Shown: positions 8,001 through 14,000 of the stretch, in pieces
Layout of the letters: each line of letters opens with the position of its first letter
Position numbering within the stretch: the stretch's first letter is position 1
Origin: Bolinopsis microptera
Taxonomy: Eukaryota; Ctenophora; Tentaculata; Lobata; Bolinopsidae
Direction: 5' to 3'
Assembly (NCBI RefSeq): GCF_026151205.1
Contig: NC_087078.1
Location: forward strand, 9,874,675 to 9,938,674
DNA length: 64,000 nt
Program-made: the position numbers and the translations under genes
Notes under the pieces: generated by a model
The model's input: only the letters and a program-made list of their open reading frames with translations
Database searches by the model: none
Told to the model about the DNA's origin: nothing

Positions 8001-11000
8001 ATGTCTTTAACTCTGATTTCACAGTATCCTCAACTGATGCTACAACCATAGATTTCAAGTCATCAAGCCTAGCTGCTTGTCCTTGGTAGCTCTTTCTGCA
8101 AATCAACTATTGAACCCTGACTGTCAATTACATCGGAGTGTAATTTCTGGTTATACTTTTCTATCTCATCAATGTACAATGATTGTCTATACATAATCTT
8201 CAACGCAGCATTTATACTCTGAGCCATGACTTCTCTAGTGATTTCTCTTTTACCATTGAAACTTTAAAAAGTACACGCGTTTACATGATCTGATTTAGTA
8301 AGCCCGAGAGTTTTCCGGATCCATTCAGCTCCATCATCTCTCACTTCATCAAGCTTATAAGCCTTGTACTTTTCCGATTTATACATCATACAACCACAAC
8401 ACCGGTTAAACAAGCAAGTCTTATCAACGTAATGATAAGTAACTGATAAGCGGCATTGGTATTTGTCTTTGAAACTAGATTACATTAAACCAAGATTCTC
8501 TTATCAGACACACATCGTGTAAGTAACTTATCCACGCTTATAAACAGAATATATATATCATTATATATATTAGTGTAAGTTTTTGTAGACATGGTCCTCT
8601 AACATGCTACTACACTACTAGAGTACAGTACACCCATCCGTGTTGAATTGCGAGTAATTAGCCTAGTGTAGGATGTGTGGATAAGCAGATTTAGGCAAAA
8701 GTAAGAGCTTGTACTAGTGCTATATACATTTCTCATTTACTGGGTGTATCTGTTACATGCCATTCATTGGCATGCCTCGTTGGTTGTATTTGTTGTGTAA
8801 TTTATTGCTCTGAGCTTGCTCATAATGTCTGTTTTCTGGGTACATCTATTCTACATTCTTCTCTATTCTCCCTCGTAGACAACAAATTAACGGTATAATT
8901 TATCATTACATTTCCTGCAGATGTTTAGTAACAAAGTGGACGATGCTATCGTCAGCAATCTGGAAACCGTCTTACGAGAGGAGTATGGTTTCTCGGGTAG
9001 TCTTGCAAACATAAAGTTCAGCAACAAGACAGAGAAAGCGTTCCCTCAGCTGATTGAAGCACTAACACAACATGCTGCACTAACAGAAAATGCTGCACTA
9101 ACAGAACATGCCAGCTCTGCTCTGGACATCTCACTGGGTCCCTCGGACGAGGACTGTACCCCGCGGATTGGGGACTCAGCCTACGTGTACTGGTGTGGGT
9201 ACGGGTGGTTCACAGCCACCATAAAGACCTGGTTACCTGACGAGTTGAGCTACATGATCAAGTGGACTGACGGAGACTGGGCAGCTGAGAGAGCCATCTA
9301 CACTAACTTGTGTGTGGATAGGGTGCCTGATCCGGCCACTATTGGGGTGGGAACCAAGGTGCTCTTCAAACAAGGTCTCTTCTACTGTGGGTATAATGAT
9401 GATGGTTCTGTTTGTGATAGCACGGGAAGGACCCTGACTGAGGAGAAGAAGCAGGAGATAGCAGGTCTCGGTCAGATCTCAGACCGGTGGCACATGGGCC
9501 GGATAACAAGTGTGACTGAGAACGACCAGGGTAAAACAGTGTACAACGGTGCCCACGTTGAGAGTGGAGATGCTCAACTCTCCAACCCTGACTATGTAGG
9601 ATACAGCGCCTCCTTCCAGGGACTGAGACTCAGTCAGTTGAGAACCCTACCTAATGTGTTCAACTGTATAGACTCCACTCCCTCGGAGCCTATCAGTGCT
9701 AATACAGATAGTGGAGGGAGTAACACTGTGTTATGTGACGTGTTTGTGTCTAAAGTGGCGTCTGATGACTCGCCAGTTCAGCGTATAACAAGGAAAATCC
9801 AGAACAAGTTTAGAGTCTCGGAGTCTTGCGGAGGGACCTCCTCAGATGTGATCCAGCGAACAGTACAGCAGATCAAAAGCTGCTCGGTCTACTTAGTGTG
9901 CCTCAGTGATAGCTTCATAGAGGACACCCAGGCCATGTCTGAGCTGCTGTACGCTAAGAAGACCCTGGGTAAAACAGTGATCCCAGTGGTTATAGGGAGG
10001 AGTGGTAAGTGGATGCATACCACAGCTGGTATGTTGCTGGCAGGACAGCTGTATATACAGTTTGGTAGTGATGATGTGTATGATGAGAAGATGGGTGAGC
10101 TGCAGAGTAACCTGGAGAAGCTTGTTATATCTGATTTTGGTGGAGCAGATTCGGTGACCCCGGATATAAAGTCAGGTCCTCCACCCAGAGTGTTCCTATC
10201 TTACTGTTGGAGCAACTCAAAGTCTTCATTTGAAGCGGGACAACTGAAAAGTTATGTGGGCCATGAGTTCTCTGATCCTAGGAAAATAAAAGCAGATATA
10301 GAAGAAAGGATCGGAGAAAGAGTTTGGCTGGATATCGAGCAGCTTAACAGTGTGAATGACTCTGGAATGTTCGGCCAGATCGCTGAAGGACTGAAGGATT
10401 CCACCATTGTAGTGATGTGTGTTTCAAAGGAATATACTCGTAGTCAGAACTGCCAGATGGAAGCGAGCTTTGCTTTGAGATCGTTGCACAAGGAAGCTAT
10501 AGTGCTTGAAGTGGGGAGTGGTGAGCAAGCGGATAGGACTGCTTGGGTAGGTAGCAGTGTCGGGATGGTCCTGCCGACCGAGCAAGAACCGTACATTCTA
10601 ACTGCCGATCAAATCAATAGTCAGGATAGCTACAACGAGATTATCGACCAGATCTGCGGCAAATTAAAGGAGGGAGCACTCTCTGAACCTCTTGAAGGTA
10701 AAGCAAAGACACGTGAAAGTAAAGCAGAAACCAGGTTCACAGAGAGTGAAAGCTTACTTCGTGCTTCTGTCCCTATGGTTGGAGACTCTGTTATCGCCCA
10801 CTACGCTGCTTGGCAGTTCTTCCCTGCTAAAGTAGCCAGTTTCAACAAGGCTGTCATGATGTATACCGTGGACTGGGAGGATCCAGATCCAAGCTGCAGA
10901 GTTCAGACTTACACTTTAGTAGCAATGAATACCATGGCAACAGATGATCTTATAGGGATAGGATCCAGTATCTTGTTTAAACAAGGGGTGTACCAGCACG

Positions 11001-14000
11001 GTGGGTCTACTGGAGATATCTGGAACCTGGGTGAGATAACTGAGGTTGTGGTGGAGGATGGTGTGAGGTATTACTCAGGTAAACACTCTAAAACAGCTGA
11101 GGATGGGCTTGCTGTGGCCACTTGGCCGAGCTTTAGACCTACCTTCGAGCGAGCTGAGAGTCATGATTTGAGACTGTTCCCTAATGCTATGGAAATGTTA
11201 CAGGCTTACAAAAACCTTTAGTTTGTTGAGACGAACAGTAATATTTGTAGTTTTAAATACAATCAGATAACTGGTACAGTGTGTACTTGAACTTGTTCCA
11301 AATGTTTAATCTTGCTTAGAAACTGTAAATTGTAACCAGTATTTAAGCAAGAAAGATTTCCATTCGATTAAATTACAACGAATATGTTTAGAATTATGTG
11401 CCAAAAGTTATTCATTAAACTATTTAGACTTTTGTACAGGTAAAGATAAGTTAGAAACTGCTATGCTCAATATTTGATGCTGTTTCTATTATATGCTTTT
11501 TATAAGTATGTACAAGTAGTTACGTTAATAGTTGGCAACACTTATTTGTTAAATGACAATGAATCAAACCAAATTTGTGAGATTAAGTGTTAATAACACA
11601 TTAAGTGTATGATAACTTAGGACAATTTGTTGAGCCGTACTGCGTTTGAGGAAATTTAACAAAGAATATAACATACATACCAGCAAAATGTAGTAGTGAA
11701 TTTGCTAATCAACCTGGAAATTAATAATAATCTCCGGGAACCGGTCACTGCGGCGGAAGTCACTGCGGCGGTGGACGGTACAGCGGAGGACGGTACAGCG
11801 GAGGACGGTACGGCGGTAGTTTTCAAAAAGGTTGGACGGTACGGCGGATCACCTGACACCCACTTTACTTTGGACAGTACGGCGGTACTACTACTAGAAA
11901 CTGTACCTAAGACAGAACTTACACATTCAACTTGTTTCTAAGTTTTGTTCTAGATTCGCATTATAAGTTTTATTTTTTCTTTTCTCTTTATCATTTTGTA
12001 TAATTCTTGTTAGTTTAGTTGTTCATTTTTTTTATTCAGGGCTTTGCAGACAATGTAAATCGAGAATATTGAGTTGTTGAAAATCAAAAAGTTAATATAA
12101 CTTGACACACTCAATAGCAATAATATCTAAATCCCACAAATCATTATCAAGAAGTTACAGCAATCAATAATTCACATAACACTTCTGAGTAGATCCAGGT
12201 AAGTCAAGACATCATCTTCGTAAGAGTGGTAGTTCTGCACGATGCGGTGAATCCTCCTGTCCTTGTCACTGTGAGCTTTCTTCCTCTTTGGTGGGTTCTC
12301 TCCGACCAGGTAGGCTGCGTGCTTCCCATCTGTTGAACTCTGCTCCATCTGAAGTGCTGTGATGAAGTCTCTGAGCTTGCTTCTTCACCGCTTGTTCACT
12401 GGGGAGGAGGAAGCGAGCAGTCTGGGACAGCGAGCCAGTAACGGAGCTGTAGATTCTGTGGTTCTGAGTAATCGTAGTCGCAGCCAGATCGTGGACTTGG
12501 GAGAGGGTTTCTCGGACTTCGCAGTCAGCTATGTCGGCACTGTGGTTTGATCCGCTTTATATACTGTTTGCCTCTATCATTATCTACGTTTCACTGAGCA
12601 ACTTCTCTTCTTGGCTACGGTTGATCAGATTCCTGGATGCGATCCCTCGTGACGTGTTCTCATGCCCTTGTTATTACCCATTGCATCTCGGCGCAGTGAT
12701 ATGAGATCTCACCGTAACAAGCTCATCATGCAATCGCTTAACCACCGTTGTGCAGACCGGACGCGATATGATACGAACCAGAAAGTGGAACAAGAACTGC
12801 TTTTAGTAATCACAATGTATATGTTAAACTTTATCCAATTTAATTTTAATCAAAATTAATTTCGAAGTAACAAAGAGGAAAATAGAACTTTTTAAAGCTA
12901 ATCGATTTTGTTATATTAGCAGTGCTAGGTCTATCTTATAGGTACAGTTTCTAGTAGAAGTAGTACCGCCGTACTGTCCAAAGTAAAGTGGGTGTCATGT
13001 GATCCGCCGTACCGTCCAACCTTTTTGAAAACTACCGCCGTACCGTCCTCCGCTGTACCGTCCTCCGCCGGACTGTACACCGCCGCAGTGACTTCCGCCG
13101 CTGCGTCCTATACCCTAATCTCCAATAACTATACCTTGTATCCATCCAAGTCTCTGGTCTGTATCTGTAACAAGGACAGATCCCTTAATATCTGGAGATT
13201 GTCTTTGTCCCACTTCAGTGCGTTCCGGTAACATTTTATTGCTTCCTCATACTTCTTATCAGATCTGTAATCAAAATACATTTATATATTGAAAGCACTT
13301 GCATCATTTTATTATAATATTCCCATTTCAGTTTTTTTCACCAGTTATTTGCTTCGTTTTACTTTGTCTGTCAAGAGCCTTATAAACAATTACACCGTTT
13401 TAATCTCACGCTCGGCGTTACGACTTACGAGTCGAGATCTATGCATACCAAACAATCACTATTTCACAAAAGAATACGCCGGAATAAGCCATAAATAGTT
13501 TTGAGAATATTCCCTTTCAAAGTAAATTGTTTCCTACCTCTGAAGGAGTCCGAACACGTGCCAACAAACGTGTGAACGGAGATTGTTGCGGAGTCCTCGC
13601 TTCACATTGTCATACGCCTCGTCCTTCCGACCCAAGCAGTTCAGGGTGAGTCCCATCATAGCCAGTGTTTCTGGGGGGATGTCAGGTCAACAACAAAAAA
13701 AACAAAAAAATATATCTCTTTGACTCGGAAGGAAATTATTAATAGTGAATACGCATTGAAAGCAAAATTGAAAAATAATTGTGGAGTGTAGGCAGCGCAG
13801 GGGTCCGGACTCTAGGGCGTAAGACTCTAGGGCGTAAGACTCTAGGGTCTTAGGGTTAGGGTTAGGGTTAGGGTTTGGGTTTGGGTTTGGGTTAGGGTTA
13901 GGGTTAGGATAATTATAAGGGTTAGGGTGATGGTTAGGGTTAGGGCGCCGCCCTAAAGTCTCACGCCCTAGAGTAGTCTTACGCCCTAGAGTCCCGGACC

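Follow-up and report, generated by a model that had tools for sequence, protein, structure and literature searches.

An old animal protein family in which tandem-Tudor modules stand at both ends of two TIR domains

What kind of protein is encoded by a long open frame on the forward strand of the window (the whole 64,000-nucleotide stretch of Bolinopsis microptera DNA analysed here), and does it have a counterpart among known sensors or effectors? An earlier note, made from the letters alone, had read this frame as two related barrel-like flanks enclosing two tandem TIR domains. The open frame itself, Pfam, fold searches and relatives confirmed that this four-part order exists in one frame of 766 residues. 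An AlphaFold2 model of the protein (alignment of 20 sequences; mean pLDDT 75.7, pTM 0.54) begins with two helices, followed by a module built mostly of strands, a pair of alpha/beta domains and another module of mostly strands, with domain boundaries within a few residues of those given earlier. All low-confidence stretches of at least 10 residues (56-76, 254-269, 404-418 and 592-611) lie between these parts, which fits separate domains. Residues 1-80 are the least conserved, with 36% mean identity within subfamily A, to which the protein belongs. The DNA of the window is plainly of animal type. The features are as follows.

8911..8920, + strand: candidate 3' splice acceptor abutting the ATG (sequence reading)
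8921..11221, + strand: open frame of 766 codons and a stop, tandem Tudor (TTD)-TIR-TIR-TTD, subfamily A member (full-length relatives)
8942..9094, + strand: N-terminal helical region, residues 8-58, two predicted helices (AlphaFold2 model, identities)
9161..9661, + strand: TTD1, residues 81-247, first tandem-Tudor module (model, alignment, whole-model fold match)
9731..10123, + strand: TIR1, residues 271-401
9941..9943, + strand: E341 of TIR1, aligning with E514 of TIR2 (alignment)
10184..10669, + strand: TIR2, residues 422-583 (Pfam, alignment)
10460..10462, + strand: E514 of TIR2, candidate catalytic Glu (alignment)
10766..11200, + strand: TTD2, residues 616-760, second tandem-Tudor module (fold searches, alignment)

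Relatives were collected by a first protein search, which found 21, and by a profile search, which found 71; these scored the 7994 and 7992 candidates, respectively, that shared most words. The order is kept in 11 near-full-length relatives that are 54-89% identical to the window protein over 98-100% of its length. Family members were found in sea urchins (Lytechinus variegatus and L. pictus), cnidarians (Clytia, Hydra, Rhopilema, Nematostella, Actinia, Montipora and Desmophyllum), the ctenophore Bolinopsis and tunicates (Styela, Clavelina and Ciona), under source names such as "uncharacterized", "hypothetical" or "TIR domain-containing". No vertebrate, insect or plant was among the named holders, which is suggestive only, named holders being a minority of the matches. 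The alignment took 50 of 74 proteins, and counts out of 50 below refer to these selected near-full-length members. The rows outside it (P0013, P0014, P0015, P0017-P0020, P0028, P0057 and P0060-P0074) are mostly fragments or shorter entries, together with the Tudor-only P0014, the 794-residue P0028 and P0074 of the rotifer Rotaria; the last of these (E 1.5e-11) is a longer protein of another kind, in which TIRs are accompanied by a death domain. We set aside the possibility that the whole protein came from a prokaryote or a virus, no relative having been confirmed in two weak scans with short peptide patterns (0 of 103 pattern matches in genome contigs and 0 of 17 in viral contigs).

The age of the order was read from trees. 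A midpoint-rooted tree of 54 proteins, namely the 50 aligned members with P0060, P0068, P0075 and P0076, contained 13 subfamily-A rows, including the window, sea urchin and Clytia proteins (support 100/100), and 39 subfamily-B rows (support 100/99); P0021 and P0060 sit beside subfamily A. Of two EukProt entries, P0012 is a subfamily-A protein, while P0068 falls in subfamily B next to the ctenophore Bolinopsis; they share the name prefix "sb/34", possibly a ctenophore naming style, in which case a single ctenophore would have both subfamilies. Mean identity over the four main domains is 63-70% within A and 51-61% within B, as against 33-38% between them, and over the whole length subfamily-B rows are 29-36% identical to the window protein. 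In module trees, which used 16 of the 50 members and the four modules of P0014 in a short search with one support value, all first and all second Tudor modules are split by one branch (SH-aLRT 91), with the first modules of subfamily A on a long branch; in the TIR trees one branch likewise splits all TIR1 from all TIR2 domains (support 99). These splits are best read as a sign that both duplications predate the division into A and B, in which case the order was built once, before the A/B split. From folds, conservation and trees together, this is an old animal protein family with the fixed order tandem Tudor-TIR-TIR-tandem Tudor. That the four parts stay together in ctenophore, cnidarian, echinoderm and tunicate members speaks for their working jointly.

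TIR proteins with an attached sensor, such as SARM1, plant TIR-NLRs, bacterial TIR-STING and SPARTA, play key roles in defence and cell death. For the new family we infer sensing, cleavage of NAD and a part in immunity. We propose that the Tudor modules bind a ligand and cluster the TIRs, with NAD+ processing as output. To this reading, in which we infer both the ligand and the catalysis, we give a probability of about 0.42. The likely setting would be immune or cell-stress defence, by analogy only.

We consider first the effector part. Pfam gave two TIR stretches in the window protein, as had been claimed (TIR_2, 64.4 bits against a cut-off of 28), and a TIR_2 match in 50/50 members; TIR profiles above the curated cut-off and a TIR fold place the protein in the TIR domain superfamily. 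The fold of TIR1 is close to the TIRs of TRR-2, RUN1, SPARTA, MyD88 and SARM1, the second fold-match list being filled by TIR1 matches and bearing on TIR1, neither on TIR2 nor on the flanks. Over the TIR2 region, the best solved-structure sequence match was Cat1, obtained with family profiles at E 0.002 and 2.6e-4; useful matches came from such profiles only, and P0001 (the window protein) alone gave one match in the PDB, at E 0.41. A ThsB_TIR match at E ≤ 0.01 is present in 11/50 members, and PADLOC returned weak TIR-type matches, the best being bSEFIR for P0001 (E 1.1e-4) and ThsB for P0031, Nematostella LOC116604300 (E 6.4e-5).

Within TIR2, F.SY.W.NS and W.D are invariant and an N-C-x-M-E motif is conserved. 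The Glu of the NC..E motif singled out in the earlier note, E514, is Glu in 50/50 members, and the aligned E341 of TIR1 in 49/50, the one exception being a Hydra member with Gln. We take E514 and E341 to mark the catalytic place, going by the motifs of TIR NADases. TIR NADases build their active sites between adjacent TIRs and are switched on by assembly, and we therefore propose that the assembled TIRs would act as the effector, most likely in NAD+ processing through these two residues. In known TIR NADases, the fourth residue ahead of the catalytic Glu is a Trp (W-x3-E); the corresponding position is Asn in TIR2 of 50/50 members, departing from the NADase pattern, and no Trp stands at this position of TIR1 in the 48/50 members covered. 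In subfamily A the box 1 Tyr of TIR1 is gone, replaced by Lys/Arg in 13/13. The Asn in TIR2 and the loss of Tyr in subfamily-A TIR1 mean that catalysis may be missing from one TIR or from both. Alternatively, the TIR pair would be a non-catalytic scaffold that recruits other TIR proteins in a MyD88-like manner, with the Tudor modules setting the place and the Glu serving a structural role. We regard this as somewhat less likely than NAD+ processing. Against it, both TIRs keep the Glu in all or almost all members although several neighbouring residues vary, and the best solved-structure sequence match, Cat1, is a CRISPR-associated TIR.

For the flanks, fold searches of the model matched the tandem Tudor domains of SETDB1, UHRF1, SGF29 and 53BP1, and each module has the two joined Tudor barrels that make a tandem Tudor module. 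The Tudor identity proposed for both flanks therefore held, and the earlier caveat that they might prove to have some other fold did not. At the level of sequence, no Pfam Tudor model passes its curated cut-off on the window protein by itself; the Tudor_3 cut-off of 25.8 is exceeded by the distant relatives P0021 (30.5) and P0022 (31.8), and 39/50 members have a Tudor_3 match at E ≤ 0.01. A profile search had been suggested at the outset, and family profiles matched the Tudor domain of KDM4A in the PDB as well as the TIR of Cat1, with modest E-values; the KDM4A matches are weak sequence matches (E 0.0064 and 0.0049). Conserved aromatic and acidic positions of TTD1 are W91 and W115 (each in 49/50 members), W96, F97 and D117. 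In TTD2, W652, D654 and D656 are invariant (50/50) and F633/F634 are conserved. Some of these places in TTD1 and TTD2 (W91, F97, W115 and D117; F633/F634, W652 and D654) may correspond to those of an aromatic cage, judged by known cage positions, and the conservation of aromatic and acidic residues in both modules suggests recognition of a methylated side chain. Tudor folds also bind non-methyl partners, and a fold match alone does not show methyl-reading.

If the Tudor modules are indeed the recognition part of an NAD+-processing sensor, they would bind a methylated lysine or arginine peptide, or a similar ligand, through the conserved aromatics. With a module at either end, binding would be bivalent, and a repeated or clustered ligand could gather TIR pairs. 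With the TTD1 of a Styela subfamily-B protein as query, 28 proteins including the query were found, and 28/28 carry a precomputed TIR_2 match, which indicates that reader and effector travel together in that set. P0014 carries the TTD1-type module four times and matched no TIR model, so a subfamily-A module can occur apart from TIR; its modules group with the first modules of subfamily A in the module tree, and it looks like a Tudor-only derivative.

The modules might instead be autoinhibitory, oligomerising or nucleic-acid-binding, leaving the sensing to the N-terminal region or its zinc fingers. Sequence reading places zinc fingers or a coiled-coil-like N-terminus before TTD1 in subfamily B, with a zf-Di19 match in 19/50 members by Pfam, and the position of the two modules around the TIRs, together with the non-methyl partners known for Tudor-like folds, would also suit such a role. 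However, few residues of the family are better conserved than the aromatic and acidic barrel positions, while conservation is lowest in the N-terminal region, and we judge this alternative improbable.

The N-terminus also bears on where the protein acts. N-myristoylated proteins start with MG-x-x-x-[S/T/A/G/C/N], and MGCxxS is a signature of myristoylation with palmitoylation. A myristoylation-type start was found in 27/36 subfamily-B members and MGCxxS in 22/36, and several of the nine members without the motif look N-terminally truncated; the number 36 leaves out P0021, which is included in the 37-row column of the TIR residue counts. In subfamily A the motif is present in 1/13 members, and the window protein, which starts MFSNKV, is without it. 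By this N-terminal motif subfamily B looks like a membrane-tethered protein. In the proposed NAD+-processing sensor, the fatty-acid anchor of subfamily B would hold the protein at the membrane, which would put its ligand in the cytosol or near the membrane and not on chromatin. A more specific version is that the bivalent tandem-Tudor protein, widespread among non-vertebrate animals, recognises methylation of a protein in the cytosol or bound to a membrane, whether a self protein after damage or a microbial one, and thereby activates a paired TIR NAD+-processing enzyme. This version is speculative and on the whole rather unlikely; if true, methyl-mark reading would have been coupled directly to TIR effector activity since early animals.

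A nuclear chromatin factor, in which the Tudor modules read histone marks and the TIRs either deplete NAD+ locally or form oligomers on chromatin, is what the best fold matches would favour, SETDB1, UHRF1, SGF29 and 53BP1 all being histone readers. For subfamily B it conflicts with a start like that of N-myristoylated, palmitoylated membrane proteins in those 27 of 36 members, by the rule given above, and we find it improbable, with more room left for it in subfamily A. A chance open frame or assembly artefact, for which no supporting point was found, is ruled out by the 11 near-full-length relatives, which come from other records. The myristoylation-type start and zinc fingers of subfamily B, the second conserved Glu (E341) and the age of the order are features beyond the earlier note.

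The NAD+-processing sensor thus envisaged can be set beside known systems. SARM1, too, is an animal protein of several domains that joins a regulatory part to a TIR, and its TIR is among the top fold matches. It differs as an ARM-SAM-TIR NADase, whereas the window protein has two TIRs, a tandem Tudor at both ends and Asn for the NADase Trp in TIR2; no ARM or SAM match was found by Pfam in the window protein or among the 25 commonest families of the 50 members. Nor did Pfam find in the window protein an LRR or Death match, which sets it outside the TLR and MyD88 families. The readers SETDB1, UHRF1, 53BP1, SGF29 and KDM4A have the flank fold in common with the new family, and KDM4A also matches weakly in sequence. 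The new family is distinguished by two complete tandem modules that bracket an effector and, in subfamily B, by a lipid-anchor motif; to our knowledge, those five readers carry no TIR domains. The likeness to Cat1, SPARTA TIR-APAZ and Thoeris ThsB lies in the TIRs (Cat1 to the TIR2 region, SPARTA to TIR1, and ThsB through ThsB_TIR), and the partner domains of prokaryotic TIR defence proteins are other than the tandem Tudor found here.

The earlier note had also said that no described family has this symmetric order, and in the literature searched we found no description of it; co-mentions of TIR domain and Tudor domain look incidental by titles and counts. The suspicion that the order might be common and already characterised was right only in that it recurs in several non-vertebrate animal groups. 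The sensor-TIR kind is already known, and a tandem-Tudor input module on a TIR was not seen in the literature searched. A 2014 article by Poole and Weis on anthozoan TIR proteins could list some family members. According to passages of a 2020 survey, NADase activity among metazoan TIRs was known for SARM1 only (PMC7075850), and passages of a 2026 preprint describe eukaryote-only TIR clades 10-13, which include cnidarian sequences, as wholly uncharacterised (PMC13142454). Passages of immune surveys in ctenophores and actiniarians report ZnF-TIR2 and TIR2-only proteins (PMC11797021, PMC5094078); the order is absent from these passages, and "Tudor" has 0 occurrences in the two main texts. The key of the Mnemiopsis TIR2 panel (Fig. 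3 legend) includes a zinc finger, and the zinc finger/TIR2 panel may include subfamily B (PMC11797021). Four TIR2 genes were upregulated in Mnemiopsis after Vibrio exposure, three being TIR2 only and one with FN3, as a passage of the same survey states (PMC11797021).

With this family, the overlooked animal TIRs gain a fixed, old architecture, a concrete input candidate in the tandem Tudor, and two candidate catalytic residues. Members occur in Nematostella, Clytia, Ciona and sea urchins, for which laboratory methods exist, so the sensing and action of an overlooked animal TIR become directly testable. At the locus itself, the candidate acceptor at the ATG is a possible mark of a 5'-UTR intron or of a trans-splice site.

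P0014 (817 aa) carries the subfamily-A TTD1-type tandem-Tudor module four times in tandem and gave no TIR match; it seems to derive from the TTD-TIR-TIR-TTD family and to have kept only Tudor modules. P0059, the Hydra vulgaris relative, has Gln in place of the conserved TIR1 Glu and the longest end branch in the family tree, and is a fast-evolving member.

Inspection of the window revealed the following features beside the TTD-TIR-TIR-TTD gene.

Features of the window
2481-4771, +, class C G-protein-coupled receptor (NCD3G and 7tm_3 matches)
14346-14457, -, tRNA match
15655-17646, -, eIF2B epsilon
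20908-22713, -, Rab3 GTPase-activating catalytic subunit
24108-25220, -, transposase frame (DDE_Tnp_4, E 1.4e-38)
45948-46904, -, alpha/beta hydrolase
47845-47956, -, tRNA match
49492-51033, +, phosphoglucomutase

The receptor is split over two adjoining open frames, the ligand region with NCD3G followed by 7tm_3, which are probably exons of a single gene. The neighbouring eIF2B epsilon, Rab3 GTPase-activating, hydrolase and phosphoglucomutase genes are common eukaryotic genes, and several of their long open frames lack an intron. Each tRNA match spans 112 bases against a model of 71 positions, so the two probably mark tRNA genes that contain introns or insertions.

The transposase frame is presumably of Harbinger type. 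Shortly 3' of the TTD-TIR-TIR-TTD gene lies a pair of inverted repeats (11736-13115; 161 nt each, 93% complementary, spaced by 1058 nt), which resembles a non-autonomous transposable element.
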